Source: an uncultured Prevotellaceae bacterium (GTDB lineage Bacteria; Bacteroidota; Bacteroidia; Bacteroidales; Bacteroidaceae). Taken from it: a stretch of DNA of 37,403 bases. Of the stretch, positions 6,302 to 35,902 are shown in pieces. A model generated the notes under the pieces. It saw only the letters and a list, made by a program, of their open reading frames with translations. It ran no database searches and was not told the DNA's origin. Made by a program: the position numbers and the translations under genes. The stretch lies in the NCBI GenBank assembly GCA_900316985.1, contig ONFE01000033.1, positions 1-37,403 on the forward strand, in the 5' to 3' direction. The stretch's first letter is position 1. Every line of letters starts with the position of its first letter.

Positions 6302-6338
6302 CCCCCTCCTTAGAAAGGAGGGGCCAGGGGTGGTTGAT
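6302..6338 (+). repeat. Palindromic element, copy A (left of the DUF559 gene)
   Basis: CCCCTCCTT-AGA-AAGGAGGGG forms a 9-bp stem with a 3-nt loop at 6303-6323, followed by the tail CCAGGGGTGGTTGAT. It begins six bases after the GH2 stop codon. The same palindrome plus tail recurs in opposite orientation at 6822-6860, on the other side of the DUF559 gene. It may also weaken read-through from the GH2 gene, though it has no T-tract. Confidence 0.9.
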
Positions 6339-6385
6339 AAATCAAGGTAATAGTGGTGGTAGCTAAATCAAATTAAAACTGCATC

Positions 6386-6793
6386 ATGCTGCACAAAGAA
6401 AAAGTAAACAATCTCACAGATGTAAAGGACCTGCGTCAGGGGCTGAGAACAACAGCCACTCCTGCGGAAATCGCCCTTTGGCAATTTTTAAAGAAAAGTC
6501 AAGTGGGAGGATTAAAGTTCAGAAGGCAGCATAGTGTAGGAGAATTTGTTCTTGACTTCTATTGTCCAGAAATCAAACTCGGTATAGAGTTGGATGGTGA
6601 AGTTCACAATACCCCTATGGCCTACGAACGTGATATGATAAGAACCCAATTTCTGAACCAGAATGGTATATCCGTTCTTAGATACCATAATGATGTGGTT
6701 TTTAATAATGCTCAGGGTATTATCGACAGCATTCTGCACTTTGCAGAGAAAAAAGAAATATTAAAGGGATACCATATTGACGAATTGTTATGA
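6386..6793 (+). CDS. DUF559 / Vsr-like endonuclease-domain protein
   Basis: 135 residues. It has the family signature: an N-terminal LR..TTATPAEIALWQFLKK helix, then KFRRQHSVGEFVLDFYC and KLGIELDGEVH. D57 and E68-x-D70 with H74 fit the active-site pattern of the PD-(D/E)XK/Vsr-like nuclease fold. The protein is full length, cytoplasmic and out of place within a glycan-degradation operon. Its stop codon overlaps the next ATG (ATGA, 6790-6793). Two inverted copies of the palindromic element bracket it (6302-6338 and 6822-6860), suggesting it arrived as a cassette with them. Nuclease activity is predicted from the fold only; the biological role of DUF559 proteins is not established. Confidence 0.85.
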   Translation: MLHKEKVNNLTDVKDLRQGLRTTATPAEIALWQFLKKSQVGGLKFRRQHSVGEFVLDFYCPEIKLGIELDGEVHNTPMAYERDMIRTQFLNQNGISVLRYHNDVVFNNAQGIIDSILHFAEKKEILKGYHIDELL

Positions 6794-9700
6794 GTAAGGC
6801 AACTACCTCTATATCGATCTTATCAACCACCCCCTGCCCCTCCTTTCTAAGGAGGGGAGGAAAAATGATATTAATGCTGCTTTTGTGCTTTGTTTCGATG
6901 GGTGTGAAAGCAGATACCAACACTCAGGCCCCCTGGACTTTCTGGTACTGGATGTACGGTGCCGTCTCAAAGGACGGTATTAAGGCCGACTTGAAATGCA
7001 TGAAAGACATCGGACTGGGAGGCTGTTACCTGATGCCTATCCGCGGAACCAACGATAAAGGAGCTCCTCAAAATCCTCCCCAAGGGGGAAAATGGGCCGA
7101 AGCACTGTCGCCCCATTTTTGGGAGATGGTAGATTATGCTTTCCAGCAGGCAGACTCTTTGGGCCTGCAGATGGGAATTCATATCTGCGACGGTTTTGCC
7201 TTGGCCGGTGGCCCATGGATTTCACCCGAGGAATCGATGCAGAAAGTAGTTTATTCAGATACCATCGTGGAGGGACAACTCGCACAACTGATCAACCGAC
7301 AAGGCGGTCTGAAACTTCCACGTCCACAAGGCTATGAAGGGTATTACGAGGATATTGCCACCTTTGCTATCCCACTGAAGCGCGATAATCCCCAACTCTT
7401 CCTTGATCAGTTTGACTTACAGCGCGACTTGGAGAAAGTGCCGCTCCTCAAATTGTCACCCACGATGACCCGCAATGACAAGGGTATCTATACGGCTTCC
7501 GAACCAGCCTGGATTCAGTTTGACTTCGGTACATCCCGTCTGTTTAGCAATATCGAGATTGCTGCCAACGGTACCAATATGCAGGCGCAGCGCATGGCTA
7601 TTGAAGCCAGCGATGACGGCACCAACTTCCGGTTGGTGAAACAACTGGTTCCTCCCCGTCAGGGATGGCAGAACTACGACTATAACACCACCTTTGCTTT
7701 TACTCCCACGAAAGCCCGTTACTGGCGTCTGTCATGGACACCTGAAGGTACAGAACCCGGCAGTGAAGACTTGGATGCTGCCAAGTGGCGTCCCCGTTTA
7801 GGACTGAAAAATGCTATTTTCCATAGTCAGCCACGCATCGACAACTGGGAGGGGAAGGCAGGCTACGTTTGGCGAATTGCCCCGGAAGCCGACACCAACG
7901 AATTGCCGGATAATATTTGTTGGAAACAACAGGATATCATTCCGTTAGCCCTTGAGGGAGACAGTGTGGCAAGCTATGCCCTTCTGTCTACAGAAACCCC
8001 GTCCACCACATACCGTATCGTGCGTATCGGCCATACTTCTACAGGCTATACCAACGCCACGGCAGGAGGTGCCAAGGGACTGGAGTGCGACAAGTTCTCC
8101 CGTGAGGCCGTCAGCAAACAAGTTGACTCATGGTTTGGATTGTTTAAACAGCGTCCCCATGCCGACGTGGTGAAATATCTGCACGTTGACTCATGGGAGT
8201 GCGGTTCGCAGAACTGGAGCCGCAACTTTGCCCAGGAGTTTGAAGCCCGCCGTGGCTACAATCTGATTCCTTGGCTGCCCGTCATGATTGGTATCCCCAT
8301 CGAATCTGCTGCCAAAAGCGATGAAGTACTGCGCGACATCCGACGTACCATCAACGAACTCGTTCATGAAGTGTTCTTCGCAACCGTTGCTCAGAAGGCC
8401 CGTGACTATGGAGTGTCACTCAGTAGCGAAAGTATGGCTCCGACAATGGTCAGTGACGGTATGGAACATTACAAATATGTGGACGTGCCCATGGGCGAAT
8501 ACTGGTTGAACTCACCTACGCATGACAAGCCCAACGATATGCTTGATGCCATCAGCGGTGCCCATATTTATGGCAAACAATTGGTACAGGCAGAGGGATT
8601 CACCGAAGTTCGCGGTGTCTGGGATGAGACTCCCGCCAGTATCAAGCCCCTGCTCGACCGCAATTTTGCACTGGGCATGAACCGCTTGTTTTTCCATGTC
8701 TTTACCCATAACCCTTGGACGGATCGCCGACCGGGCATGACACTCGATGGAATCGGCCTTTTCTTCCAGCGCGACCAGACGTGGATGCCCGAAGCAAAGG
8801 GTATGGTTGACTACATTACCCGTTGCCAGGAATTTCTGCAGAAAGGTATTCCAGTGGCCGATATTGCTGTTTTCACGGGTGAGGAGATACCATCCAGAGC
8901 CGTCCTCCCCGAACGGTTAGTTCCTATACTCCCTGGTCTTTTTGGTAAGGAACGGGTGGAATCAGAAGCAAAAAGACTCCAAAACAAGGGGAATCCCATG
9001 GAAGAGAGTCCGGTGGGTGTTCATCATTCAGCAGGAATTGTGGATACCCGCGACTGGGTGAACGCATTGCGAGGTTATCAATACGATTCCATGAACCGTG
9101 ATGTCTTGTTGAATCTGGCAACAGCCACTGATGACGGACATATCCAACTGCCAAATGGTATGCGCTATCGGGTACTGGTTCTCCCAATGAATCCGCCAAA
9201 AAAAGAGTATTCCAAAGAGGTCAGCGAAAAGATAGAGGCTTTCCGAAAAGCTGGTGTCCTGGTGATTGACAAGCCCTACGAAGGGCATGATTTCTCATCC
9301 TTCGGACTGCCGCGTGACGTGGAAGTACCTAAGGATATCGCCTATACACACCGCTACGATAACGGGCAGGATATCTATTTCTTGGCTAACCAGTCGGAAA
9401 AGAAACGCTCCTTCCGTTTCTCCATGCGCCAGAAGGCCAGCACCCTCTTTCTTTTCGACCCCCTAAATGGTCGCTATGATGCCGTATTCTGTGACCAGAA
9501 AGACGGACGCGACGGGACCGATATCACGCTTCCACCCTATGGTTCACTGATTGTCATCCGTTCGGAAAACTTCAAAGAAAGCATTGAGCTTAAGCCCCAA
9601 GAACCGGAATACAATGCCCCAAGACATAATATTGAGACTTCCTGGCGCATCCATTTCCATAACAACGACATTAGAATGTCCTCTGATCAGTTGTTCGACT

Positions 9701-10089: not shown

Positions 10090-10120
10090 TGAGAATAGAT
10101 CATAAAGAGAACAATCAGAT

Positions 10121-11560: not shown

Positions 11561-13740
11561 GAATCAAACATATAGCTATTCTAGGATTCCTAGTTATTCT
11601 AGAATTCCTAGTTCCTTCAGCAGCAAGTGCCGCTGATTATAAGCCCAAGGATTATGTTTGGACCACGCAGAGCCGGAACTCGTCGGAGTCGATGCCCTGC
11701 GGCGGTCACGATATCGGTATGAACGTCTGGGTGGAAGACGGCGATGTGCTGTTCTATGTGTCGCAGAGCGGATGGTTCGATGAGAACAACACCCTGCTGA
11801 AAGCGGGGCGCTGGCGTATCCATTTCGATGACCAGCCGGCCGTAGGAACCTTTGAACAGCGCCTCTGCCTCGACGACGGGGCTATCTATATCACATTAGG
11901 CGACATGAAAATCCGCCTTTGGGCAGATGTCGCGGACCCCGTGGTGTTCTGCGACATTTCTTCAAAAAAGAAAGTAAAGACCACCCTCTCGTATGAAAGT
12001 TGGCGCTATAAAGACCGAAATATCACAAAAGCCGAATGCCAACAAACCAGTTATAAGTGGACTTTACCCGATGGAACCGTTACTTTTGCCGATTCCATCG
12101 AGGTTTTAAACAACAACCTACACTTTTATCATCAGAACCGAAACGAGACAGTTTTCGACTATACTGTGAAACGGGAATTCCTGGAAGAAGTAAAAGACCA
12201 GCTATATAACCCCATCGGCGGACTCCGAATGGAGGGTACTATGAAAATTAACGGATTATTATATAAAGGTACGCACGATGGAGAATATGCCGGAACCGAT
12301 TACCGCGCCTGGGATTTCTGTGGGGAGACAAAGAAGGGAGTTTTTTCCATTTGCCTTGGCAAAGCCACTTGTTCGGCCAGTATTTCCAAGAAACGCTCGG
12401 CCCAGTGGTGGCACCAATACTGGCAGCGGTCGTGGATTCAGACCGATAATCAGGAAGCGGCAGAGATGGTGCGCAACTATGAATTGTTCCGCTATATGCT
12501 CGGCTGCAATGCCCACGGACAATGGCCGACGAAGTTTAATGGCGGACTTTTTACCTTCGACCCGTTGCATGTGGCCTCTCCCCCCGCCCTCCCCAATAGG
12601 GAGGGAGCCACAGAGGAAATATATACCCCCGACTACCGCAAATGGGGCGGTGGTACCATGACTGCGCAGAACCAGCGTCTGGTGTATTGGCCGATGCTGA
12701 AAAGCGGCGATGCTGACTTGTTGAAACCACAATTAGATACCTATCTGCGGATGCTGCCCACAGCCAAACTATGGGCACAGCACTTCTGGGGACACGGCGG
12801 CGCCTGTTTCCCGGAGCAGATTGAAAACTCTGGACTGCCGAATCCTGCTGAATACGGAAAACCAAAACCGGGACAGGACCGCGGTGTAGGCCGTAATGCA
12901 TGGCTGGAATACGAGTGGGACACCGCGCTGGAATTCTGCATGATGGCCTTGCAGGCCCGGGAGTATGCCCCCGAAACCAGTTGGGATAAATATGAACCAC
13001 TCATCGCTGAATGTCTGAAATTCTTCGATGAACACTACCAGTATGAAGCCAATAAGCGCGGCGCCAAGACCTTCGATGCCAACGGCAGACTGGTTATCTA
13101 TCCGGGATCGGGTTGCGAGACTTATAAGATGGCCTATAATCCTTCATGCACCATTGCTGCCCTGAAGGCTGTTCTAGAGAAATGGGGTAAGGATTCGGCG
13201 ATGCTTTCCCGAATTCCCGAGATTCCCACAAGGGTAATTGGCGGAGACACTTGTGTTGCTCCGGCCATCGTATGGGAGAGAATCCAGAATGTGGAGACGC
13301 CCCAACTTTATCCCGTCTTCCCCTGGCGCATCTTTGGACTAGGGCTCCCAGGACTGCAAACGGCCGTTAACACCTATACAAAAGACCCACATGCTTTGGA
13401 GATGCGCTCATCGAAAGGCTGGAAACAGGACAATATCTGGGCAGCCTGTTTGGGACTCACCGATGAGGCCCGCCGGCTGAATCTGGAGAAATTAGGGAGC
13501 GGTCCCTATCGGTTTCCTGCTTTCTGGGACCCGGGTTTCGATTGGGCACCCGACCACAACCGCGGCGGAGCAGGAATGATTGGTGTGCAGGAGATGCTCT
13601 TGCAGGAAACACCCAAAGGCGAACTACTGCTCTTCCCCGCCTGGCCGAAGGAATGGAATGCCAAGTTCCGCTTACATGCCACGGGTGGCCGCATAGTTGA
13701 AGCGAAAATCAATAACGGAAAAATCAGTTTGACGAAATGA
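11554..13740 (+). CDS. DUF5703-type glycosidase-like protein, secreted
   Basis: 728 residues. After a hydrophobic leader (cut near AASA, residue 27) comes the DUF5703 signature SESMPCGGHDIGMNVWV, then FYVSQSGWFDENNTLLKAG, in an N-terminal beta-supersandwich. The second half (from about residue 300) is helical with WP and aromatic motifs, like the (alpha/alpha)6 barrels of six-hairpin glycosidases. I recognise the family but not an assigned activity; its place between an acetylesterase and a rhamnosidase suggests a plant-cell-wall glycan substrate. Residues 342-352 (SPPALPNREGA) are an in-frame palindromic repeat, and the signal-peptide core is an 18-bp tandem repeat. It overlaps neighbours by 7 bp (upstream) and 4 bp (downstream). 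Confidence 0.8.
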   Translation: MVRIKHIAILGFLVILEFLVPSAASAADYKPKDYVWTTQSRNSSESMPCGGHDIGMNVWVEDGDVLFYVSQSGWFDENNTLLKAGRWRIHFDDQPAVGTFEQRLCLDDGAIYITLGDMKIRLWADVADPVVFCDISSKKKVKTTLSYESWRYKDRNITKAECQQTSYKWTLPDGTVTFADSIEVLNNNLHFYHQNRNETVFDYTVKREFLEEVKDQLYNPIGGLRMEGTMKINGLLYKGTHDGEYAGTDYRAWDFCGETKKGVFSICLGKATCSASISKKRSAQWWHQYWQRSWIQTDNQEAAEMVRNYELFRYMLGCNAHGQWPTKFNGGLFTFDPLHVASPPALPNREGATEEIYTPDYRKWGGGTMTAQNQRLVYWPMLKSGDADLLKPQLDTYLRMLPTAKLWAQHFWGHGGACFPEQIENSGLPNPAEYGKPKPGQDRGVGRNAWLEYEWDTALEFCMMALQAREYAPETSWDKYEPLIAECLKFFDEHYQYEANKRGAKTFDANGRLVIYPGSGCETYKMAYNPSCTIAALKAVLEKWGKDSAMLSRIPEIPTRVIGGDTCVAPAIVWERIQNVETPQLYPVFPWRIFGLGLPGLQTAVNTYTKDPHALEMRSSKGWKQDNIWAACLGLTDEARRLNLEKLGSGPYRFPAFWDPGFDWAPDHNRGGAGMIGVQEMLLQETPKGELLLFPAWPKEWNAKFRLHATGGRIVEAKINNGKISLTK
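11577..11612. repeat. 18-bp tandem repeat forming a signal-peptide core
   Basis: TATTCTAGGATTCCTAGT and TATTCTAGAATTCCTAGT lie head to tail and differ at one base. Each contains a CTAG..CTAG palindrome. In frame they encode ILGFLV and ILEFLV, the hydrophobic core of the DUF5703 protein's signal peptide. Related CTAGGATTCTT sequence forms the hairpin at 34819-34852. Confidence 0.85.
12577..12609 (+). repeat. In-frame palindromic element, copy E (DUF5703)
   Basis: TCTCCCCCCGCCCTCCCC-AATA-GGGAGGGAGCC translates as SPPALPNREGA. It has the same orientation and register as the copy in the tRNA-dihydrouridine synthase (SPTLPKGEGV). Confidence 0.85.
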
Positions 13741-16178
13741 AACAGCGTAATTATTTAATGGAACACAAAGACACAAAGACACAAAGTTTCTTTGCTAAGG
13801 CGCTTCATGCATTGTGTCTATGTGCCTTTGTGTTTCATTTCAGCAGCCTGTCCGCACAGATAGAAAATGCCCGATGGATTGGGGCAATTTCGAAACAGAA
13901 GGCTAAGATTCCCACAGGCCGATGGAGCAATGCTGTGTTCAAAAAAGACTCTTTCATACAGAAATGGCAGGACGTGGATACGCTCTCTGCCCGATCCATC
14001 ATCGTGAAAAAGGATTTCAAGGCCAAAGGGAAGATTGCCAAGGCTGTGGTGGATGTTTGCGGACTGGGCCACTACGAACTGACGATTAACGGACAGAAAG
14101 TTGGTGACAGTGAGTTTGCCCCGCTTTGGAGCGAATACGACAAGACCGTATATTATAATAGGTATGACGTGACGGAATTGCTGCGGAAAGGAAAAAATCG
14201 CTTGGAGACACTGCTGGGCAACGGCATGTTCAACGTACAGCGCGGTTCACGCTACAGCAAACTGCAGCAGAGTTTCGGTCCGCCACAACTGCTGCTGCGA
14301 CTGGTCATTACCTACCAGAACGGTAAGCAGCAGGTTATCGAAAGCGATGGTTCTTGGCAATGGCGCCTGTCACCTGTTACATTCAACAGTATTTATGGAG
14401 GGGAGAGCTATGAAGCCCCCCTCGAATCCCCCCTTGGGGGGAAGGTCTGGCAGCCCGTGGTTTTTACCGAAGGACCGAAAGGAACATTACGATTGCAGAC
14501 GGCTCCGCCCGTAAAAATCATGGAACGCTACGATGTGAAGTCATGGAATTACATTTTTCCCGATTCCATCGAGGCTGCATCGAAGGCTACAAAACGTGCC
14601 ATCCAACGGGGAGCTTTCGTCTGTGACATGGGCCAAAACCTGGCAGGATTCCCCGAAATCACCGTCAGCGGCAAACCGGGGCAGAAGATTACACTCTTAG
14701 TTTCGGAGAAACTCACTCCACAAGGAGCTTGTGATCAGCGCCAAACAGGCCGTCAACACTATTACGAATACACGATAGGTAACCACCATCACCCAACACC
14801 CATCACCTATCACCCAAGATTTTCCTATTACGGTTTCCGCTACATCCAGGTGGAAGGGGCTGTCTTTGAAGGTGAGCCAAACCCTTATGGACTACCTGTG
14901 CTCCACAAACTTCAGAGTTGTTTCGTATACAACTCGGCTCCGGAAGTCTCGACTTTTGAATGCAGTAATGAACTTTTCACCCAAACCCACCGTCTCATCG
15001 AGCGCGCAGAGCGCTCGAACATGCAGGCCGTATTCACCGATTGCCCCCATCGTGAGAAACTGGGCTGGCTGGAACAAGACCACCTGAACGGTCCTTCCCT
15101 ATTATATAACTACGACCTGCGCACCTTTGTTCCGAAGATTATCCAGGACATCGTAGACACCCAGAAGCCTGACGGGATGGTGCCTACCACCGCACCGCAG
15201 TATGTCTCCTTCGGCAATCTTTTCGATGATTCCCCCGAATGGGGAAGCACACTCATCATCCTGCCGTTTATGTATTACGACCAATACGGTGACAGTACGC
15301 TGATTGTGAACAACTATGACCCCATGCGACGCTATGCAGACTATTTGACTACACGTGCCGAAGATGGAATCGTGAGTCACGGTCTTGGCGACTGGTACGA
15401 CCAGCGTGGTTCGGAACCTGGCGGTTTTTCCAAGAACACCCCCATCCCATTGGTGGCTACTGCCCATTATCTGATGGATTTGCGCTATGTGGCCCAGGCC
15501 GCGCGCATGAAAGGTCTTCAAAAAGATGCTGAAAAATACGATGAAATGGCCGCTTTTGTGACCCGAAGGTTCAATGAAGTGTTCTATCATGCTGACTCTT
15601 GCTATTACGGCACAGGCAGTCAGTGTAGCGATGCCTTGCCTCTGTTTCTCGGTATCTGCCCTGACAAAGATGCTGTTTTGCGCCATCTCATCGAGGATAT
15701 CAAGAACCACGGCACCCGCCTGACCACTGGCGACGTGGGCAACCGCTATCTTTTCCAGGTATTGGCGGAGAACGGGCAGAACGAACTGCTTTTCCAAATG
15801 CTCAACCACGATGAAGCCCCAGGCTACGGTTATCAACTGAAGGCTGGCGCAACGACACTCACCGAACAGTGGATGCCCGAGAACGGTTCTTCACAAAACC
15901 ATTTTATGATGGGGCAAGCCGATGAATGGCTGTTCAAGACCATCGCCGGTATCCGTCAACAGAAAGGCACCCACGGTATGCGCCATCTGTTGATTGCCCC
16001 CCAATTAGTGGGCGATATCCAATGGGTGAAAGCCTCCACAATGGCTGCTGGCGGCATTGTCAAGGTGGATGCCACCCGCGAACGCATCACCGTTGATGTT
16101 CCTGAGGGTTGTGATGCCGAGCTCGTGAAAATGAACGGAGAGAGAAAAACCGTTGGGAGCGGCAAACATACTTTTTAG
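13737..16178 (+). CDS. GH78 alpha-L-rhamnosidase, secreted
   Basis: 813 residues. N-terminal rhamnosidase beta domains (IENARWIG, then VDVCGLGHYELTINGQKVGD) precede the (alpha/alpha)6 catalytic barrel. The GH78 acid motif TDCPHREKLGWLEQD covers D435, E440 and D448. The second catalytic glutamate is E710 in LTEQWMPENGSSQNH. It should cleave terminal alpha-L-rhamnosides, complementing GH106. The start overlaps the preceding stop (ATGA); an ATG at 13758 (residue 8) is also possible. The signal peptide is built from a dispersed ACACAAAG inverted repeat. Two further repeats lie in frame: the palindromic type at residues 226-237 and a CACCCA-type run at 349-360. It ends the operon. Confidence 0.9.
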   Translation: MKQRNYLMEHKDTKTQSFFAKALHALCLCAFVFHFSSLSAQIENARWIGAISKQKAKIPTGRWSNAVFKKDSFIQKWQDVDTLSARSIIVKKDFKAKGKIAKAVVDVCGLGHYELTINGQKVGDSEFAPLWSEYDKTVYYNRYDVTELLRKGKNRLETLLGNGMFNVQRGSRYSKLQQSFGPPQLLLRLVITYQNGKQQVIESDGSWQWRLSPVTFNSIYGGESYEAPLESPLGGKVWQPVVFTEGPKGTLRLQTAPPVKIMERYDVKSWNYIFPDSIEAASKATKRAIQRGAFVCDMGQNLAGFPEITVSGKPGQKITLLVSEKLTPQGACDQRQTGRQHYYEYTIGNHHHPTPITYHPRFSYYGFRYIQVEGAVFEGEPNPYGLPVLHKLQSCFVYNSAPEVSTFECSNELFTQTHRLIERAERSNMQAVFTDCPHREKLGWLEQDHLNGPSLLYNYDLRTFVPKIIQDIVDTQKPDGMVPTTAPQYVSFGNLFDDSPEWGSTLIILPFMYYDQYGDSTLIVNNYDPMRRYADYLTTRAEDGIVSHGLGDWYDQRGSEPGGFSKNTPIPLVATAHYLMDLRYVAQAARMKGLQKDAEKYDEMAAFVTRRFNEVFYHADSCYYGTGSQCSDALPLFLGICPDKDAVLRHLIEDIKNHGTRLTTGDVGNRYLFQVLAENGQNELLFQMLNHDEAPGYGYQLKAGATTLTEQWMPENGSSQNHFMMGQADEWLFKTIAGIRQQKGTHGMRHLLIAPQLVGDIQWVKASTMAAGGIVKVDATRERITVDVPEGCDAELVKMNGERKTVGSGKHTF
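13761..13836. repeat. ACACAAAG inverted repeat encoding the GH78 signal peptide
   Basis: GAACACAAAGACACAAAG (with a third ACACAAAG unit) at 13761-13786 is repeated in inverse at 13811-13836 (TTGTGTCTATGTGCCTTTGT). Between and across the arms the frame reads EHKDTKTQSFF..ALHALCLCAFVF, a charged n-region and hydrophobic core. I recognise the HKDTKTQ/LCVFVF translation as frequent at Bacteroidetes ORF starts. Confidence 0.8.
14415..14444 (+). repeat. In-frame palindromic element, copy D (GH78)
   Basis: The core CCCCCC-TT-GGGGGG at 14428-14441 is preceded by GCCCCCCTCGAAT. It translates as APLESPLGGK, aligned in register with the copy in GH106 (APQNPPQGGK). Confidence 0.75.
14782..14816. repeat. 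CACCCA-type simple repeat inside GH78
   Basis: ACCACCATCACCCAACACCC continues as ATCACCTATCACCCA, translated NHHHPTPITYHP (residues 349-360). Matching runs occur between genes at 33651-33675 and, reversed, at the 3' end of the tRNA-dihydrouridine synthase gene (35886-35921). Confidence 0.75.
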
Positions 16179-16228
16179 CTTAATAATTGATAACATATTG
16201 CTTTTCAGCATAAAAAAGAGCTCTTCTT

Positions 16229-20462: not shown

Positions 20463-21100
20463 AGATAGAACACGGCTTCGTTACCCATATTGAAAAGAAG
20501 GTCAAGAATGGAAAGGTTTGGCAGAAAGCCGAACCTTTCTTTATATACCTGGTAGTAGGGTTTAGGACTGAAGTCACTGTCCTCCTGAGGATGCTTGGGG
20601 TGGATGACGGTGCGGAAATCAAGAGCCCCTCCCCTGCCCTCCCCAAAGGGGAGGGAGTTCTGATAGGATGACGTCAATTCAATATGAGGATGGATGTCGA
20701 GTAGTTCGCACATCTTCTCAGTAATGGCCATATTGAAATCAAGGAGAAACTCCCAACGGTCTTCAAAAAACGGACGGATATCGTCTTCGTAAAATTCGAA
20801 GAAAGGACTCTCACCATAGGCACTCTGCAACGCGTTCCAATGCTCCGTGCGCCATTTGCCGTGGTTGCTGATGCGGACATCCTTGATGGGTGTCTTGCTC
20901 AGGGCGAGCCCCTCCCCTACAGGGGCCTCCACAGGTACCGTCAGCGCCTGCACCCCTTGAGTGGTAGCAATGACGCAACGATTTCGGTAAGTCTGTTTCA
21001 GGAAATGTTCATGCTGTTCCATCAGCACACCGTCAAAGCGATTCAGCTTCTGATACCATTGCACGGGTCCGAAATATGTCGTAGCAAGAATAGCCTTCAT
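20459..21100 (-). CDS. wbqC: WbqC family protein
   Basis: 213 residues. The family start (ILATTYFGPVQWYQKL) and core (DVRISNHGKWRTEHWNAL, SPFFEFYEDDIRPFF) are intact, as is the C-terminal LFNMGNEA. WbqC proteins are found with polysaccharide and glycan-modification genes; their reaction is not established. The protein carries two in-frame palindromic repeats: residues 58-67 (EAPVGEGLAL) and 148-159 (NSLPFGEGRGGA), both in otherwise variable stretches. It is the last gene of the minus-strand dapB-lepB-lepB-like-wbqC run and shares four bases with the convergent STAS gene at their stop codons. Confidence 0.88.
   Translation of the reverse strand: MKAILATTYFGPVQWYQKLNRFDGVLMEQHEHFLKQTYRNRCVIATTQGVQALTVPVEAPVGEGLALSKTPIKDVRISNHGKWRTEHWNALQSAYGESPFFEFYEDDIRPFFEDRWEFLLDFNMAITEKMCELLDIHPHIELTSSYQNSLPFGEGRGGALDFRTVIHPKHPQEDSDFSPKPYYQVYKERFGFLPNLSILDLLFNMGNEAVFYL
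20624..20661 (-). repeat. In-frame palindromic element, copy F (wbqC)
   Basis: CCCCTCCCCTGCCCTCCCC-AAA-GGGGAGGGAGTT on the plus strand. Read on the wbqC strand it gives NSLPFGEGRGGA, the opposite orientation to the copies in DUF5703 and the tRNA-dihydrouridine synthase. Confidence 0.85.
20904..20929 (-). repeat. In-frame palindromic element, copy G (wbqC)
   Basis: Plus strand GCGAGCCCCTCCCC-TACA-GGGGCCTC; on the gene strand it reads EAPVGEGLAL. It is a shorter variant with a CCCCT-gta-AGGGG stem. Confidence 0.75.
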
Positions 21101-21564: not shown

Positions 21565-21632
21565 CCCCCACCAAACCTCCCCTAGGGGAGGCTATCTGTT
21601 TCCCCCTCCCTTCGGGAGGGCAGGGGTGGGCC
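21565..21632. repeat. Two palindromic elements between the lepB genes (copies H1, H2)
   Basis: H1 is CCCCACCAAACCTCCCC-TA-GGGGAGG; H2 is CCCCCTCCC-TTC-GGGAGGGCAGGGGTGGG. They fill nearly the whole gap and stop three bases before the lepB stop codon. Their tails (GGGGTGGG and CCCCACC) face outward. Confidence 0.9.
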
Positions 21633-23990: not shown

Positions 23991-24136
23991 AATTCTGTGT
24001 TCTAGTAAAATAGTTATCGTTATCGTTACAGTTGGTATGGAATTTTTAGCGTTTAAGGGTGCAAGGGTGTCAAAAACCCGATAAACAAAGGGCTTGCACC
24101 CTGTTTCAGAGGGTGTCAAGGGTGTCATAAGGGTGT
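23991..24136 (+). repeat. AAGGGTGTC element, copy 1
   Basis: Starts AATTCTGTGTTCTA, passes through a GTTATC hexamer run and GTTGGTATGGAATTTT, and ends in folded repeats: AAGGGTGCAAGGGTGTC, ACCCGATAAACAAAGGG, CTTGCACCCTGTTTCAGAGG and GTGTCAAGGGTGTCATAAGG. GGGTGCAAG pairs with CTTGCACCC. The same sequence lies in opposite orientation at 27428-27578. No open frame; it fills the gap between the dapB promoter and the terminator of the small-peptide gene. Confidence 0.92.
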
Positions 24137-27051: not shown

Positions 27052-27110
27052 GCGCCGTTGGCGCGATTCAGGTTTCAAGATTAAAGATTAAAGATTAAAG
27101 TTCAAGTTTC
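27052..27110. repeat. GCGCC-GTT-GGCGC stem-loop and GATTAAA triplet repeat
   Basis: A perfect 5-bp stem (27052-27064) is followed by GATTAAA repeated three times and by TTCAAGTTTCAGG. TTTCAGG-type sequence also ends the far side of the inverted repeat (27685-27699, as CCTGAAAC). No coding potential. Confidence 0.6.
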
Positions 27111-27273
27111 AGGCTTCTGTGTATTTCGTGTTAATATAAAATAGGTATCGCTATTGTTTTTTCATGTCTTCTGTGAACGTACCTTAGTGAACATAAATAA
27201 TGTGTCACTGACCGAAGGGAAGTAATTCTGTGTTCTAATAAAATGGTTATCGTTAACGATAGCGTTAGCGTTG
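27106..27273 (+). repeat. Long inverted repeat, left arm (about 168 bp)
   Basis: The arm runs from GTTTCAGGCTTCTGTG to GCGTTAGCGTTG. Its centre (27147-27240, including CTTCTGTGAACGTACCTTAG and CACTGACCGAAGGGAAGTAA) is almost base-identical to the reverse complement of 27529-27692. The last 50 bp are also the start of an AAGGGTGTC element. Confidence 0.93.
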
Positions 27274-27384
27274 ATAAATTCTCTAGAGAATTATCGTCCA
27301 AACATCATCGGAAGGGATGCAAACTATCATCGGAAGGAAGAAATTCTCTAGAAAATTTCTTAACGCTAACCTGAAACTTGAATC
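27274..27384. repeat. Loop of the long inverted repeat: AATTCTCTAGAGAATT palindrome and ATCATCGGAAGG pair
   Basis: AATTCTCTAGAGAATT (27278-27293) is a perfect palindrome, and AAATTCTCTAGAAAATTTC follows at about 27341-27359. Between them ATCATCGGAAGG occurs twice. No open frame or promoter is visible. Confidence 0.7.
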
Positions 27385-27421
27385 CTCCCCCTCCCTAAAC
27401 AGGGAGGGTTGGAGTGGGTCT
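27385..27421 (+). repeat. Palindromic element, copy K (intergenic)
   Basis: CCCCCTCCC-TAAACA-GGGAGGGTTGGAGTGGGT: stem CCCTCCC with GGGAGGG and the typical GGAGTGGGT tail. It lies in the loop of the long inverted repeat. Confidence 0.85.
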
Positions 27422-27427
27422 ACTATG

Positions 27428-27578
27428 ACACCCTTATGTCACCCTTGACACCCTCTGAAACAGGGTGCAAGCCCTGTGTTTATCGGGGTTTTGACACCCT
27501 TGCACCCTTAAACATAAAATTTCTATACCAACGATAACGCTAACGTTAACGCTAACCTTTTTAATAGAACACAGAATT
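27428..27578 (-). repeat. AAGGGTGTC element, copy 2 (inverted)
   Basis: Reverse-complement copy of 23991-24136 with a few substitutions (e.g. CCCCGATAAACACAGGG for ACCCGATAAACAAAGGG) and a longer hexamer run. Its AATTCTGTG end lies within the right arm of the long inverted repeat. Confidence 0.92.
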
Positions 27579-27692
27579 ACTTCCCTTCGGTCAGTGACAC
27601 ATTATTTATGTTCACTAAGGTACGTTCACAGAAGACTTGAAAACAACAGCGATACCTATTATATTAACACGAAATTCACAGAAACCTGAAAC
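27529..27692 (-). repeat. Long inverted repeat, right arm (about 164 bp)
   Basis: Partner of 27106-27273. It runs from CAACGATAACGC to CCTGAAAC. Together the arms could form a stem of about 165 bp around a 255-bp centre. Confidence 0.93.
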
Positions 27693-27708
27693 CTGAAACT
27701 AGAAACAG

Positions 27709-27776
27709 AACTCCCTCCCTAAACAGAGGGCTGGGATGGGTCGCTTTCATTCAGGGAGGGTTGGGGTGGGTCCTTT
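27709..27776. repeat. Two palindromic elements at the 3' end of the regulator gene (copies L1, L2)
   Basis: L1 is AACTCCCTCCC-TAAACA-GAGGGCTGGGATGGGTC. L2 is CATTCAGGGAGGGTTGGGGTGGGTCC. L2 supplies the last codons of the regulator fragment (GPTPTLPE) and its stop, in the register used by other genic copies. Confidence 0.85.
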
Positions 27777-28286
27777 TATGTATTCACTGGGCGTAAGGCC
27801 GTACTCATTTTTAAAGTGCTGGGCGAAGCGCTTGGGGGAATTATAACCTACCTGATAGGCTATCTCGGCAACGGTGAGACCGCTCTCTTTCAGGAGTTGG
27901 CAGGCACGCTTCATGCGGATAAGGCGTATAAAATAAAGAGGTGTAACGCCTGCCAAGGCATTAATCTTCTTGAAAAGTTTGTTGCGCTGGATATGCAATT
28001 CGTCACTCAACACATCAACGGTGAAGTCAGGATTGCCGATATTCTCCTCAATAATACGCTTGGCATCCTTCAAAAGTTGCTCATCAAGCGATGAAATGGT
28101 GAGTTTTGAAGGCTCCATGTCAAAATTCTCCCGCAATAGGACGTGGCTTTCCTCCTGACGCTTCAGCACATGAATGATGCGCTGGCGGAGCACATCCATG
28201 TGGAAGGGTTTGGTGATATAATCGTCGGCACCCATGCGCAATCCCTCGAGTTCATCTTCTGCAAATGCCTTGGCTGTGAGCAGGAT
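27747..28286 (-). CDS. Hybrid two-component regulator, C-terminal fragment (REC end and AraC-type HTH)
   Basis: This frame carries the second half of the receiver domain (ILLTAKAFAEDELEGLRMGA, then DDYITKPF) and a complete AraC-type helix-turn-helix (LHIQRNKLFKKINALAGVTP .. VAEIAYQVGYNSPKRFAQHF). It is out of frame with the sensor kinase that precedes it and has no good start of its own; the first usable codon is a TTG near 28241. The natural end was probably after PSEYIK: the final GPTPTLPE is a palindromic repeat read in frame. Without restoring the frame it cannot be phosphorylated by the sensor, so the whole regulator is probably inactive, unless the frameshift is an assembly error. Confidence 0.85.
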   Translation of the reverse strand: MLLTAKAFAEDELEGLRMGADDYITKPFHMDVLRQRIIHVLKRQEESHVLLRENFDMEPSKLTISSLDEQLLKDAKRIIEENIGNPDFTVDVLSDELHIQRNKLFKKINALAGVTPLYFIRLIRMKRACQLLKESGLTVAEIAYQVGYNSPKRFAQHFKNEYGLTPSEYIKGPTPTLPE

Positions 28287-31621: not shown

Positions 31622-31667
31622 GGCTAGTTTCTTCAATCACTATCGAGTTAAAAAGTTTTCTCGGGCA

Positions 31668-31698
31668 CAAAAATAGAATATATTTTCCATAAAAACAA
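31668..31698 (-). promoter_or_regulatory. Promoter of the hybrid regulator: TTG-N20-TATTTTTG
   Basis: Minus strand TTG (31696-31698) and TATTTTTG (31668-31675), 46 bp before the ATG. The 90-bp space to the opposite -7 box makes this a divergent promoter region. Confidence 0.75.
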
Positions 31699-31761
31699 GC
31701 GTTAAAGGCTCTTTTTCTCACATAAATCCACCCTGAACTCTGATATTGAATTATTTTTTTG

Positions 31762-31769
31762 TACTTTTG
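31762..31769 (+). promoter_or_regulatory. -7 box TACTTTTG for the DUF2851 gene
   Basis: The box ends 24 bp before the ATG at 31794. This decides the start: the frame is open upstream to 31746, but that part would overlap the promoter. The -33 element is poor. Confidence 0.65.
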
Positions 31770-31793
31770 TGGCATCTTCAAACAGATGACTCC

Positions 31794-33089
31794 ATGGAAC
31801 TACTATTACACTATTGCTGGAAACACAAGTTGTTTCCACTCAAGGAACTACAGACGACCGACGGACAAGAAGTGGAAGTGATAGACCCCGGACTGCATAA
31901 CCGACATGCCGGGCCCGACTTCTTCAATGCCAAAGTGAAAATCAACGGCACGCTTTGGGTGGGTAACGTGGAGATTCACCAGCGTTCGGGCGACTGGTAT
32001 CTGCATGGACATGACCAAGACCCGGCTTACGATAACGTGGTGCTGCATGTGGCAGCTGTCATCGACCGAGACGTGAAGACGGCTGCGGGCAACTATCTGC
32101 CACAAATGCAACTCGACGTGCCGGCAACGGTTAAGGAGCATTATGAAGAACTGCTCCGTGAGGATCAGTATCCACCTTGTTACCGGATTATCCCCGAACT
32201 GACACGACTGACGGTGCATTCATGGATGAGTGCCCTGCAAACGGAACGACTGGAACAGAAGACGGAGGCCATCCGCGAACGGGTGAAACGCTGTGAAGGT
32301 TCTTGGGAGGCCGGCTATTTCGTCACGCTGGCCCGCAACTACGGCTTCGGCGTAAACGGTGAAGCCTTCGAACAATGGGCTTATCATATTCCATTAGGAA
32401 GTGTGGCCCATCATCGCGATGACCTTTTCCAGATAGAAGCCATCTTCATGGGACAGGCGGGACTGCTGGAAGTCAGTCAGATTCCGGAGCAATACCAGCG
32501 GGATGCCCTCAATGAAGGTTACTTCTCACGATTGCGCAATGAATACCTGTACTTGCAACATAAGTTCCACCTGGAACCGATGGACCCCACCATCTGGCGC
32601 TTTCTTCGCCTGCGCCCTCAGAACTTCCCTCATATCCGCCTCTCCCAACTAGCCCAACTCTATTATAACCGACAGGCAGGACTCAGTCAGTTGCTGGAAT
32701 GCAAAAGTATCGAAGAACTGGAAGAGGTGCTGAAGACAAACGTCACACCCTATTGGGAGACGCACTACACCTTCGGTTCTACCTCTTGCAAGACACAGAA
32801 GAACCTTTCGAAAGCGTCTTTGAATCTGCTGATGATCAATACAGCCATCCCAATGCTCTTTGCATACGGACGGCATCATTCCAAGGAGGAACTCTGCGAC
32901 AGGGCTTTCGACTTGCTGGAACGACTGAAGGCCGAGAACAACCATATTACGAGGATGTGGCAACAATGCGGCCTGCACATCGAGAGTGCCGGTGACAGCC
33001 AGGCACTCATCCAACTCAAGAAGGAATACTGCGACCGCAAGGATTGTCTGCGCTGCCGATTCGGATATGAATATTTAAAGAAAAAGTAA
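31794..33089 (+). CDS. DUF2851 family protein
   Basis: 431 residues from the ATG at 31794 (MELLLHYCWKHKLFPLKELQ). The family signature GLHNRHAGPDFFNAKVKING follows, then VGNVEIHQRSGDWYLHGHD and YDNVVLHV, an arrangement of Asp, Glu and His resembling PD-(D/E)XK nuclease-like folds. The C-terminus has two cysteine pairs (C..KDCLRCRFGYEYLK). The family is widespread in Bacteroidetes next to housekeeping genes and has no proven function. It is transcribed away from the hybrid regulator and followed by a separately promoted thioesterase. Confidence 0.85.
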   Translation: MELLLHYCWKHKLFPLKELQTTDGQEVEVIDPGLHNRHAGPDFFNAKVKINGTLWVGNVEIHQRSGDWYLHGHDQDPAYDNVVLHVAAVIDRDVKTAAGNYLPQMQLDVPATVKEHYEELLREDQYPPCYRIIPELTRLTVHSWMSALQTERLEQKTEAIRERVKRCEGSWEAGYFVTLARNYGFGVNGEAFEQWAYHIPLGSVAHHRDDLFQIEAIFMGQAGLLEVSQIPEQYQRDALNEGYFSRLRNEYLYLQHKFHLEPMDPTIWRFLRLRPQNFPHIRLSQLAQLYYNRQAGLSQLLECKSIEELEEVLKTNVTPYWETHYTFGSTSCKTQKNLSKASLNLLMINTAIPMLFAYGRHHSKEELCDRAFDLLERLKAENNHITRMWQQCGLHIESAGDSQALIQLKKEYCDRKDCLRCRFGYEYLKKK

Positions 33090-33139
33090 TAGGGTAAAAA
33101 AGAAAGGGCAAAAGACTTCGCCATTCCATAGTTTTTTTG

Positions 33140-33147
33140 TAGTTTTG
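33140..33147 (+). promoter_or_regulatory. -7 box TAGTTTTG for the thioesterase gene
   Basis: TAGTTTTGC matches TAnnTTTG 35 bp before the ATG at 33183. No TTTG stands at the usual -33 distance (TTCG at 33117-33120 is the nearest). Confidence 0.6.
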
Positions 33148-33182
33148 CGCTCTGATGAACAAACTAAGTCAACAATAATCAT

Positions 33183-33581
33183 ATGAGTAAGATCTTTGAA
33201 ACCCGCATGGAGGTACGCGACTATGAGTGCGATATCGAGGGAATCGTGAACAATGCCAACTACCTCCACTATATGGAGCACACACGCCATCTCTTCCTGA
33301 AAGCATGCGGACTGAGTTTTGCGGAGATGCACCGTAAGGGCGTCGATGCCGTGGTGCATCGCATCGATATCACCTATAAGATTCCCCTGCAATGCGATGA
33401 TGAATTCATCTCGCGTCTTCATATCGCCAAGGGGATGCTTCGCTATGTGTTTTATCAGGACATCCTGCGTGCCAGCGACATGAAGCTTTGCACTAGAGCC
33501 AAGGTGGAACTGGTTTGCCTCGTCAACGGAATACTCTCCGACAGCGAGGATTACGACCGTGCGTTTGCGGAGTGGCTATAG
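33183..33581 (+). CDS. Acyl-CoA thioesterase, 4HBT hot-dog fold
   Basis: 132 residues, standard for the YbgC/FadM-type 4-hydroxybenzoyl-CoA thioesterase group. The active-site segment is YECDIEGIVNNANYLHYMEH, with the catalytic Asp in ECD before GIVNNANY. TYKIPLQCDDEF and the terminal strands complete the hot-dog fold. The substrate is not readable. Followed by a palindromic repeat and a CACCCA-type run before dprA. Confidence 0.88.
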   Translation: MSKIFETRMEVRDYECDIEGIVNNANYLHYMEHTRHLFLKACGLSFAEMHRKGVDAVVHRIDITYKIPLQCDDEFISRLHIAKGMLRYVFYQDILRASDMKLCTRAKVELVCLVNGILSDSEDYDRAFAEWL

Positions 33582-33585
33582 GATA

Positions 33586-33615
33586 CCCACCCCTACCCTC
33601 CCTAAGGGAGGGAGT
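33586..33615 (-). repeat. Palindromic element, copy I (intergenic)
   Basis: ACCCACCCCTACCCTCCC-TAA-GGGAGGGAG, four bases after the thioesterase stop codon. Its orientation is that of the copy in the tRNA-dihydrouridine synthase gene. Confidence 0.85.
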
Positions 33616-33650
33616 AAAATGTGTCCTCGGGAGACAGGTATTCACCAATA

Positions 33651-33675
33651 TCTAACACCCAACACCTAACACCTA
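33651..33675. repeat. CACCTAACACCCAACACC-type run before dprA
   Basis: TCTAACACCCAACACCTAAC followed by ACCTA, a 7-8 bp unit repeated three times, ending seven bases before the dprA start. It is the same family as the runs in GH78 and at the end of the tRNA-dihydrouridine synthase gene. Confidence 0.75.
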
Positions 33676-33681
33676 TAGAAT

Positions 33682-34809
33682 ATGAACGAAAAGGAAATAC
33701 TCTACACTCTGGCGCTGACGCGCATCAACTACTTCAACCTGGCAGGAATCCGCCAACTCTATGAAGCGGCAGGATCCGCCACGGCCATTGTGGAGAACCT
33801 CAACAATATCCGCGACATCGTTCCTGATGTAGCTCCGAAAATGCTGGAAGGACTTCGCGACATCAACATCGTGATGCCACGTGCTGAAGCCGAACTACGC
33901 TATTGCCAACAGTACGACATACAAATACTGGCCCTCAATGACCCGCACTACCCTTCCCGACTCCGTGAATGCGACGATGCACCGATACTTTTATTCTATA
34001 AAGGAACGGCAGACCTCAACCAGCAACGGGTCATCAACATGGTGGGCACCCGTCATTGCACGGCCTATGGACAGGATCTGGTGCAGCGTTTCATGGAAGA
34101 ACTGAAGCAACTGAGTCCCCAAGTACTCATCATCAGCGGTCTGGCTTACGGCATTGACATCTGTGCCCATCGCAACGCCCTCCGGCAAGGCTATGAGACG
34201 GTAGGTGTGCTGGCCCACGGACTCGATGACCTTTATCCATCGCGCCATCGTGAAACAGCCAATCAAATGGTCTGTCAAGGTGGACTGCTGACAGAGCATT
34301 TCACGAATACCAATGCAGACAAGATTAACTTTGTACGCAGAAACCGTATTGTAGCAGGTATGTCGGATGCCTGTATCGTGGTGGAAAGTGCGGCTAAAGG
34401 CGGCAGTCTGATTACGGCCCGGCTCTCACGCGACTATAATCGGGATACCTTTGCCTTCCCAGGCTCTGTAGGTGCTCCCTATAGTGAAGGCTGCAACCAC
34501 CTCATCCGAGACAATCAGGCGGGCCTCATCACATCAGCCGAAGATTTCGTAAAGGCGATGGGCTGGCAGGACGACGCCACGCTGATAACTGCCCAGCAAC
34601 AAGGCATCGAACGCCAACTCTTCCCCCAACTCAATGAGACGGAGACACGCATTGTGGCTGCCTTGCAAAAGCAGAACGACCAGCAGATTAACCTCCTCAG
34701 CGTACGTACCGATCTCCCCATCTCGAAACTCACCTCCACCCTCTTTGAACTGGAGATGAAAGGGGTGGTTAAAACCCTCGCAGGAGGTATCTATCATTTA
34801 TTAAATTAA
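33682..34809 (+). CDS. dprA: DNA-processing protein A (transformation-associated)
   Basis: 375 residues, normal length. An N-terminal helical (SAM/HhH-like) part precedes the Rossmann-like DNA-binding core: ISGLAYGIDICAHRNAL, GVLAHGLDDLYPSRHRE, NFVRRNRIVAGMSDACIVVE and GGSLITARLSRDYNRDTFAF followed by PGSVG. A winged-helix domain (LPISKLTSTLFELEMKGVVK) ends it. DprA loads RecA onto incoming single-stranded DNA in natural transformation. dusB follows after 55 bp. Confidence 0.95.
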   Translation: MNEKEILYTLALTRINYFNLAGIRQLYEAAGSATAIVENLNNIRDIVPDVAPKMLEGLRDINIVMPRAEAELRYCQQYDIQILALNDPHYPSRLRECDDAPILLFYKGTADLNQQRVINMVGTRHCTAYGQDLVQRFMEELKQLSPQVLIISGLAYGIDICAHRNALRQGYETVGVLAHGLDDLYPSRHRETANQMVCQGGLLTEHFTNTNADKINFVRRNRIVAGMSDACIVVESAAKGGSLITARLSRDYNRDTFAFPGSVGAPYSEGCNHLIRDNQAGLITSAEDFVKAMGWQDDATLITAQQQGIERQLFPQLNETETRIVAALQKQNDQQINLLSVRTDLPISKLTSTLFELEMKGVVKTLAGGIYHLLN

Positions 34810-34818
34810 TGGCTAGAG

Positions 34819-34852
34819 ATCTAGATATTCTTGAAATACAAGAATCCTAGAT
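34819..34852. repeat. CTAG-type hairpin between dprA and the tRNA-dihydrouridine synthase
   Basis: ATCTAGATATTCTTG and CAAGAATCCTAGAT pair with one bulge around AAATA. The right arm (AGAATCCTAG) is the complement of the CTAGGATTCT motif repeated in the DUF5703 signal peptide. No T-tract follows, so it is not a clear terminator. Confidence 0.65.
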
Positions 34853-34864
34853 TATCAGGTAATC

Positions 34865-35902
34865 ATGAAAATAGGAAATATAGAATTTGAACCGCAACCG
34901 CTTTTCCTTGCTCCAATGGAGGATGTGACAGACATCGGCTTTCGGAAACTATGCAAACGCTTCGGAGCCTCGATGGTCTATACCGAATTTGTTTCGGCAG
35001 AAGCATTGGTGCGCTCGGTGAAATCTACCGTCAGCAAACTCACCATCGCTGATGAGGAAAGACCCGTAGGCATTCAGATTTACGGGCGTGATGTGCCGCA
35101 GATGGTGGAAGCCGCCCGTATTGTGGAAGCCGAAGCCCACCCCGACGTGATTGACTTGAACTTCGGTTGTCCAGTGAAGAAAGTGGCCGGCAAAGGGGCC
35201 GGGGCCGGTATGCTACAAAAACCTGAACTGCTTCTGGAGATTACCCGCGAAGTGGTGAAGGCCGTCAATACGCCCGTTACTGTGAAAACCCGTTTGGGAT
35301 GGAATCAGGAACAACTCATCATCACCACACTGGCCGAACAACTGCAGGACTGTGGCATTCAGGCGCTCACCATCCACGGGCGCACCCGCAGTCAGATGTA
35401 TACCGGACAGGCCGACTGGACGCTCATCGGGGAAGTGAAACGTAATCCCCGCATCCATATCCCGATTATCGGAAACGGCGACATCACCACACCCGAAGAA
35501 GCCCGGTTAGCCTTTGAGCGCTATGGTGTGGATGCCGTGATGATAGGCCGTGCTACCTTCGGACGACCTTGGATATTTAAGGAAATCAGGGAGGGCCTCT
35601 CCCCAACCCTCCCCAAAGGGGAGGGAGTTCTCACATTGGATGATAAAATTGATATCCTGAAAGAACAACTCCAAATCAATCTCGCACATATAAATAAGGA
35701 ACGCGGGGATGACGATCCGCGCAACGAATTGCGCGCCATTCTCCATACCCGCCGCCATCTGGCTGCCTCACCAATCTTCAAGGGAATCCCCAATTTCCGC
35801 CAGATGCGCATCCAGATGCTACGTGCCGAAACCATCAGCGAACTCAACGACCTTTTGGAACAATGCCGTGAACTGCTGAAGGATTCGGGTGTTGGGTGTT
35901 AG
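34865..35902 (+). CDS. dusB: tRNA-dihydrouridine synthase (DusB-like)
   Basis: 345 residues. TIM-barrel FMN enzyme: LAPMEDVTDIGFRKLCKRFG, then QIYGRDVPQM, DLNFGCPVKKVAGKGAGAGM with catalytic C102, TVKTRLGW, LTIHGRTRSQMYTGQADW, IIGNGDITTPEEA and VMIGRATFGRPW. The C-terminal helical domain has the HTRRHLAASPIFKGIPNFR stretch that contacts tRNA. It reduces uridine in the D-loop. Residues 244-255 (GLSPTLPKGEGV) are an in-frame palindromic repeat at the junction between barrel and helical domain, where related proteins have a loop of variable length. The C-terminal residues GVGC and the stop are encoded by a GGTGTTGG-type repeat, so the native end was probably different. Confidence 0.93.
   Translation: MKIGNIEFEPQPLFLAPMEDVTDIGFRKLCKRFGASMVYTEFVSAEALVRSVKSTVSKLTIADEERPVGIQIYGRDVPQMVEAARIVEAEAHPDVIDLNFGCPVKKVAGKGAGAGMLQKPELLLEITREVVKAVNTPVTVKTRLGWNQEQLIITTLAEQLQDCGIQALTIHGRTRSQMYTGQADWTLIGEVKRNPRIHIPIIGNGDITTPEEARLAFERYGVDAVMIGRATFGRPWIFKEIREGLSPTLPKGEGVLTLDDKIDILKEQLQINLAHINKERGDDDPRNELRAILHTRRHLAASPIFKGIPNFRQMRIQMLRAETISELNDLLEQCRELLKDSGVGC
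35594..35629 (+). repeat. In-frame palindromic element, copy J (dusB)
   Basis: GGCCTCTCCCCAACCCTCCCC-AAA-GGGGAGGGAGTT reads GLSPTLPKGEGV. Its 15-17 bp core is identical to copy F in wbqC, on the other strand relative to the gene. Confidence 0.9.

Follow-up and report, generated by a model that had tools for sequence, protein, structure and literature searches.

Rickettsia and Wolbachia palindromic elements insert in frame in protein genes, and the phage nuclease gene mobE inserted in nrdA gives a gene in pieces, an unspliced nuclease insertion in an essential enzyme. BoxC or intrastrand triplex repeats, known since the 1990s, have to our knowledge never been assigned an enzyme; DUF559, for its part, is a domain 'of unknown function' that is widespread. 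The present analysis concerns a stretch of 37,403 nucleotides (nt) from an uncultured Prevotellaceae bacterium (assembly GCA_900316985.1, contig ONFE01000033.1), hereafter the window, which is contig 60 of a genome of 3.73 Mb that is 99.77% complete and in which G/C-rich palindromes lie between genes, within genes and on both sides of a DUF559 gene. We consider it about 75% probable that these palindromes either end a mobile DUF559 cassette, which moves between and into genes, or are derived from it and lack the nuclease. Such a palindrome-ended nuclease element is apparently an undescribed class, and no literature linking DUF559 or ycjD to these repeats was found in titles and abstract openings, most subscription journals lying outside the search.

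Among the closest known systems, intein and intron homing endonucleases such as I-Bth0305I resemble the present case by their fold, their conserved hosts (tRNA synthetases, helicases), their sporadic spread and their recurrent sites, but the element described here has its own inverted-repeat ends, and a splicing domain or a known intron RNA was not found in scans. The mobE insertion in nrdA illustrates that an essential enzyme can tolerate an unspliced nuclease insertion, although the gene is there split into two chains whereas here the frame stays open. Rickettsia and Wolbachia elements share the in-frame position of palindromes inside protein genes, and the preliminary description of the window, made from its sequence alone, had named them as kin. 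This kinship does not hold, as the CGTC terminus and the A/T pairs at the stem base that mark the CGTC class in the part of the source available (PMC3733652) are absent, by eye, from the copies listed here, whose architecture is that of BoxC (PMC3733652, PMC4666352). Repetitive extragenic palindromes (REP, REPIN) and their RAYT transposase, together the REPtron, also have palindromic ends in head-head and tail-tail dimers, an enzyme gene between inverted copies and gene-less dimers, but the enzyme is there a HUH tyrosine transposase and here a PD-(D/E)XK-type nuclease (PMC3733652, in part). The GTAG tail of REP is absent from the listed copies, by eye, with C-rich feet in its place, and the Y1 transposase family PF01797 has no match in the whole source genome, other transposase families not having been searched.

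BoxC or intrastrand triplex motifs are G/C-rich, occur in more than 260 genomes and are tied to instability (Holder et al. 2015, PMC4666352). According to that article, triplex formation by the E. coli motif is reported in vitro, the motifs stall polymerase in vitro and mark unstable loci, earlier work cited there found no promoter or terminator activity, the copies of strain K-12 are always intergenic, and the authors state that they never found remnants of transposase or integrase around them. The present repeats share with these BoxC, PIT or triplex repeats a G/C hairpin with a mirror block, inverted pairs, presence or absence and deletions between strains, and DUF559 matches were found here in the groups from which BoxC was reported, namely E. 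coli, Neisseria and Cyanobacteria (PMC4666352, in part). They differ in that K-12 copies are intergenic only whereas those described here also lie in frame (GcpE, DapF, GH78, MetH-like protein and the window) and flank a nuclease gene.

Inverted palindromes around DUF559 genes

The repeat unit consists of a C-rich 'foot' (GACCCACCCC), two variable nt and a hairpin CCCTCCC-loop-GGGAGGG. In the window, the copies at 6303-6340 and 6820-6857 form a 38-nt inverted repeat, 95% complementary, around a gene for a 135-residue DUF559 protein (6386-6793) that was absent from the preliminary description. Besides a marginal match in a 1784-residue frame, the genome has strong DUF559 matches in three genes, all of which lie between matched inverted palindromes, at the sufC-sufD, argG-argC and GH2-GH106 junctions. 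The ends are alike within a cassette and unlike from cassette to cassette; those of the sufC-sufD cassette are translated as the sufC C-terminus and the sufD N-terminus. At this junction, where 26 of 30 loci could be read by motif, DUF559 was present in the window's own genome only and gene-less palindromes in two others. Suf operons carry DUF559 cassettes in Sphingomonas (sufB-sufC; L251) as well as in this genome (sufC-sufD; L031).

The generality of this arrangement was assessed by matching the left flank of DUF559 locally with the reverse complement of the right one (200-250 bp) and taking the best score; random positions in the same loci served as control, and scores of 14 or more were counted. 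Matched inverted ends were found in relatives at 25 of 41 DUF559 loci versus 7 of 1184 control positions (42 places from 44 of 58 rows, with 14 weak, fragmentary or contig-end rows omitted and one place dropped for a short flank), on public genome contigs at 46 of 78 loci versus 7 of 2087 positions (80 loci minus one duplicate and one short locus), and in a phylum-wide draw across Bacteroidota at 15 of the 30 loci given versus 0 of 512 positions; these three samples may share genomes. A gene-level control, in which some loci overlap, gave matched ends at 36 of 99 DUF559 open reading frames (ORFs) versus 4 of 248 other ORFs. Matched terminal inverted repeats, a trait of DNA transposons and insertion sequences (IS), were seen at between about one half and three fifths of the loci, and the association of the palindromes with DUF559 is firm.

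Outside Bacteroidota, 8 of 32 tblastn matches in records of a plasmid collection were examined. Matched ends were observed in Pseudanabaena (score 57), Deinococcus (20) and Sphingomonas (24; between sufB and sufC), and palindromes on one side of DUF559 were seen by eye in the other five of the eight, namely two E. coli ycjD loci, Sinorhizobium, Photobacterium and Azospirillum. E. coli ycjD is located between sapF and fabI, and in this species BoxC and ycjD appear to represent the same association.

Foot and stem are mirror images of each other. In the 55 of 61 head-head (HH) arms that were parsed, the mirror score was 0.911 versus 0.795 with feet permuted among elements (maximum 0.835 of 500), 0.665 after shuffling and 0.772 as a direct repeat, so that the hairpin with a third block mirroring its stem, by which the BoxC/intrastrand triplex motif is defined, is also found in these ends. 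Across 73 cassettes, oriented automatically, 61 have their feet outward (HH), 4 inward (TT, the window's included, that of L108 being marginal) and 8 are unclear. Nuclease clade as the determinant of orientation is not borne out, the window's clade of six in the tree of the relatives comprising three TT, two HH (one with weak arms) and one without ends. Neighbouring genes are codirectional at 87 of 99 loci, trivially so at 39; the remaining 48 of 60 compare with about 62% expected (300/380 same-strand pairs, squared), a modest excess that is not relied on.

The AlphaFold model of the window's DUF559 protein (pLDDT 83.2) was matched by Foldseek to 3hrl (TMt 0.89), to the catalytic domain of I-Bth0305I (3r3p; TMt 0.78-0.79) and weakly to Vsr (E=0.05), and the DUF559 profile matches 3hrl (E=3e-29) and 3r3p, a 'mobile intron protein' (E=1.5e-6). 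As modelled, the fold is like that of the homing endonuclease I-Bth0305I and agrees with the EDxHD or Vsr-like class of homing endonucleases. The catalytic-type residues E15, D43, E54 and H60 are kept in all 39 copies found in frame inside host proteins (see below). DUF559 matches split in two frames, seen in G028 (C36:261891-262210), G030 (C109:13914-14230) and G012 (C66:1306-1610), are dying copies, and that of G028 retains its ends. In Caulobacter, the Vsr-like DUF559 protein VsrA provokes an SOS response in cells that lack a methyltransferase, according to the part of the source available (PMC12907096).

Distribution and signs of mobility

DUF559 is patchily distributed: at E<=0.001, with weak matches and the source genome itself counted, 28 of 60 genomes have it, and at E<=1e-15 it is found in 126 of 296 across the phylum. 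Within the genus, the median number of palindromes is 29.5 in 16 genomes with a strong DUF559 and 0 in 17 without (p=4e-5, uncorrected for kinship); three genomes with weak hits were set aside in this test, and p is 1.6e-5 when they are counted as negatives. The control pattern for the palindrome gave 0 in all 60 genomes.

A near-exact empty site was observed at the junction of etfA and an acyl-CoA dehydrogenase gene (names given by eye from translations), where a 608-bp cassette of genome G026 (L091, 2905-3512) is absent from G003 at 97-98% identity. This junction could be read in 24 of 25 loci. Eight of them, G003 among them, have only few bases, G026, G016 and G023 have DUF559 cassettes, G029 has a symmetrical single palindrome and G008 a gene-less pair; the rest have other sequence. 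G023 has a hairpin with loop GATT at both ends of a DUF559 cassette and in 10 gene-less copies, among 31 places listed, whereas no listed place of G008, G012, G016 or G028 has this hairpin. Gene-less copies with hairpins identical to the DUF559 ends of the same genome were found in the two genomes read.

In E. coli, strains H240 and KE47 contain 27 and 11 palindrome copies, with 0 for the control. Between hrpB and mrcB a palindrome pair is present or absent, and two strains have one fused hairpin after a deletion between the two, a kind of deletion between strains that was also reported by Holder et al. (PMC4666352, in part). The yhjG-yhjE locus (L252) was rejected as a simple insertion, its alleles being replaced instead. 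Mobility of the cassette is strongly supported.

DUF559 and palindromes in frame within genes

When insertion sites were clustered by their flanking ORFs, a cluster of 39 turned out to be an artefact because the upstream and the downstream ORF were one ORF containing DUF559, and it thereby revealed the in-frame copies. These lie within one long open frame at 39 of 99 DUF559 loci with adequate flanks, that is 5 of 36 from relatives (of 42 places) and 34 of 63 from public contigs (of 79 loci). As identified by Pfam scan of representatives, clustering and linker context, the hosts are RecG (13), leucyl-tRNA synthetase (LeuRS; 10, at two sites at least), the isoleucyl and valyl enzymes (IleRS, 4; ValRS, 3), DegT-type aminotransferases (3) and, once each, an ABC-F protein, an AAA helicase, a SpoIID-like protein, MazG, GH31 and a methylmalonyl-CoA mutase fusion. 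In the phylum-wide draw, 34 of the 150 DUF559 places listed are in frames of at least 600 residues, and ten frames scanned have hosts that include MetH, HsdM, HsdR and LeuRS, one being without a listed host domain. In one locus (L373, 175-3315), the HsdR frame includes two nuclease domains, DUF559 and GIY-YIG.

The host continues on both sides of the insert, as residues 298/441 of the LeuRS query correspond to 236/242 of the solved chain, 421/574 of RecG to 515/519 and 640/787 of IleRS to 533/541. In these host proteins the linkers are translated palindromes or what has decayed from them. The LeuRS insert is bounded by palindromes translated as HLPLAPSKRGG and PSIGGDLGEV, and DUF559 is found in LeuRS of 2 of the 56 genomes with a LeuRS match, namely G054 (the query's own) and G037. 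The domains listed for 17 in-frame proteins (E<=0.001) and for 10 (E<=1e-10) were DUF559 and host domains, with no intein (Hint) family among them, and Rfam gave 0 matches at the gathering threshold for the window and five cassette loci. Residence in frame inside host proteins is firm, and the inserts are apparently unspliced, judging from their sequences. The 13 RecG loci (among L110-L176), mostly of Flavobacteriia, have one common site, matched palindromes in 0 of 13 and intact catalytic-type residues; these copies look old, and it is likely that they were domesticated after insertion. An AlphaFold model of RecG with DUF559 (pLDDT 57.5) was set aside.

Palindromes are found in frame without the nuclease as well. 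In the window, a single cassette with inward feet spans 6303-6857 and about ten copies lack the gene; the parts are as follows.

6303..6340, minus strand: left end of the DUF559 cassette, hairpin outside, foot (GGGGTGG) inside; arm score 32, class TT
6386..6793, plus strand: DUF559 gene, 135 residues, predicted Vsr-like / I-Bth0305I-like nuclease fold (PF04480, E=4e-29)
6820..6857, plus strand: right end of the DUF559 cassette, overlapping the 5' end of the listed GH106 frame
7061..7090, plus strand: decayed in-frame copy of the CCCCCC subtype in GH106 (APQNPPQGGK), resembling the L032 cassette ends
12572..12611, plus strand: in-frame copy in the DUF5703 gene (SPPALPNREGA)
14413..14442, plus strand: in-frame copy of the CCCCCC subtype in GH78 (APLESPLGGK), like the argG-argC cassette ends
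20622..20661, plus strand: in-frame copy in WbqC, whose gene is on the minus strand (NSLPFGEGRGGA)
21566..21591, plus strand: intergenic copy, first half of an inverted pair, feet outward
21602..21629, minus strand: intergenic copy, second half of the inverted pair with 21566
27385..27420, minus strand: intergenic copy
27713..27740, minus strand: degenerate copy
27752..27772, minus strand: half copy up to the 3' end of the regulator gene (GPTPTLPE)
33586..33615, plus strand: intergenic copy
35592..35631, plus strand: in-frame copy in dihydrouridine synthase (Dus; LSPTLPKGEGV), in a loop of variable length

The second subtype, AGCCCCCCTCNAATCCCCCC..GGGGGG, resembles the ends of the genome's argG-argC DUF559 cassette (L032). 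Genome-wide, the strict pattern was found at 38 places and a looser one at 91, versus 0 for the backwards-read control in both cases, and the palindromes are thus real. Sixteen of the 38 strict copies form eight inverted pairs with spans of about 110-330 bp. In-frame copies, as in GcpE, DapF, GH78 and the MetH-like protein, fall within a Pfam domain or in the stretch that separates two domains of the same protein.

The preliminary description had placed the palindromes in frame inside real genes, and it saw true copies in DUF5703, in WbqC (20622-20661) and in Dus. Its other entries need amendment: those in GH78 and GH106 belong to the second subtype, the regulator tail is a half copy, and the WbqC peptide EAPVGEGLAL (near 20909) is an ordinary VxxPxGxxL loop present in some orthologues. 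A fixed register per orientation was too strict a claim, as it fails outside the window. Among the 30 of 38 strict copies covered by the register check, sense-strand copies use three registers, that is PPQPSxxREG in GcpE (L030) and an RluA-like protein (L002; ORF start unsettled), THPSPPYEGGS in DapF (L005) and PxxLPxxEG in Dus and DUF5703 of the window; antisense copies have one common register in GH78 (L011), a MetH-like protein (L018), a GyrB-like protein (L022; start unsettled) and the window's WbqC. The inference that out-of-frame insertions must be filtered was right; the survival of in-frame copies would be due to ends that translation can pass and to tolerant landing sites. In alignments with orthologues, the peptide is unique to the window among 29 Dus and 29 WbqC orthologues, and no exact empty site is readable in either because the loops differ too much in length. 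Overall, real scars had been seen and the wrong kin named.

One Dus orthologue (L187, of G011) has a different repeat-like peptide in the same loop, SVGAPLVGAQAP, and from this sequence the loop may be a general landing place for repeats. Other repeats were also observed. A 118-nt inverted repeat (27159-27643; 94% complementary, 249 nt apart), nested with more arms and TAACG-type repeats, constitutes with an 86-nt arm pair (24051-24136 / 27428-27513; 97%) a family distinct from the palindromes. At 2926-3007 there is a perfect 41-bp tandem duplication. A ACAAAGTAAATTAGTTTGTACC-type repeat occurs at 3226-3316 and in L020 (about 1575-1662), being found also between two palindromes elsewhere in the genome, and a second GC-rich repeat of GGGTGTCATAAGGGTGT type lies immediately outside inverted palindrome pairs in L013 and L020.

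Proposed mechanism, alternatives and significance

The element would have the layout [foot-hairpin]-DUF559 nuclease gene-[hairpin-foot], of about 0.6 kb. We infer that DUF559 itself drives the movement: the nuclease would recognise the fold-back ends (hairpin or triplex) or a target site and then cut, and repair of the break would copy the element, as for a homing endonuclease. Gene-less ends could be carried in trans, and deletion or slippage between two hairpins would leave single palindromes as scars. Selection would retain insertions at gene junctions and at tolerant places of open frames, where the ends can be read through, so that an essential host protein would go on working while joined to a nuclease domain, with neither protein nor RNA being spliced. 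The chances seem evenly balanced for a wider proposal, in which DUF559 with BoxC-like ends would be a phylum-crossing element that homes in frame into conserved genes and is never spliced, essential enzymes would bear a live nuclease domain connected by linkers translated from the palindromes, DUF559/YcjD would be the missing mobility enzyme of BoxC and the in-gene palindromes of many bacteria ('LPxGEG') would be its scars.

Several observations weigh against the mobile cassette. The DUF559-negative genomes G022, G027 and G032 have 15-18 palindrome copies, the positive G030 and G031 have one each, and at the order level the pattern is found in only 4 of 8 DUF559-positive genomes (0 of 16 negatives). 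No matched ends reached the threshold at 16 of 41, 32 of 78 and 15 of 30 DUF559 loci of the three samples, all 13 RecG loci included. At the single near-exact empty site no target-site duplication was seen, with 5 bp in G003 versus 13 bp and the cassette in G026, and the cassette may have been lost from G003 instead of gained by G026, since the nearest kin of the G026 DUF559 is found at this very junction in G016. The hrpB-mrcB alleles of E. coli also have unequal sequence on one side. Moreover, the in-frame share varies by sample, the query that retrieved the contig sample being one of the in-frame copies itself, and the HsdR cases could be ordinary domain fusions. Finally, cutting and moving of these ends by DUF559 are predictions from sequence.

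Movement of the palindromes by an unrelated enzyme (RAYT, an IS or replication slippage), with DUF559 as cargo between two ends, is unlikely. It would fit with gene-less pairs and singles being more numerous than cassettes, with the three negative genomes rich in copies and with a nuclease activity that is so far predicted. However, the Y1 transposase family, the one searched, is missing from the source genome, matched ends are commoner at DUF559 ORFs than at other ORFs, palindrome copy number tracks DUF559 and its active-site-type residues are conserved.

A little less probable is that DUF559, where in frame, works as an accessory domain for tRNA synthetases, RecG and other hosts, domesticated and not inserted by mobility. 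The RecG loci, without matched palindromes at threshold, and the intact catalytic-type residues are in line with this, but the domain is sporadic in LeuRS, occupies at least two sites there and others in IleRS and ValRS, its hosts share no function, and the linkers in LeuRS, IleRS and others read as palindromes.

Lower again we place the palindromes as host RNA or DNA elements, such as terminators, mRNA stabilisers or nucleoid or replication-structure sites, near which DUF559, as a Vsr-like repair enzyme, gathers by chance or owing to their breakage. GC hairpins do occur near gene ends, and the polymerase block and unstable loci of BoxC/triplex motifs (PMC4666352, in part) and the relation of VsrA to the SOS response (PMC12907096, in part) would suit such a role. 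On the contrary, ends match within a cassette and differ between cassettes, copies lie in frame in coding regions whose hosts are uninterrupted in relatives, ends and gene are jointly absent at the empty site, and the E. coli motif was without promoter or terminator activity in the work cited by Holder et al. (PMC4666352, in part). Rickettsia-type elements in Bacteroidales, suggested by small palindromes in frame inside ORFs, are very improbable given a terminal motif and stem composition unlike the CGTC class and a nuclease partner here, whereas that class is reported without a dedicated transposase in the part of the source available (PMC3733652).

Linking the BoxC/triplex repeats with DUF559 as one mobile element would explain both. 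It would also offer a route by which a selfish nuclease may end up as a domain of an essential protein with no splicing involved, a matter relevant to how the insertion domains of tRNA synthetases and helicases arose. The link would likewise account for the P/G/E-rich 'LPxGEG' peptides of annotated proteins.

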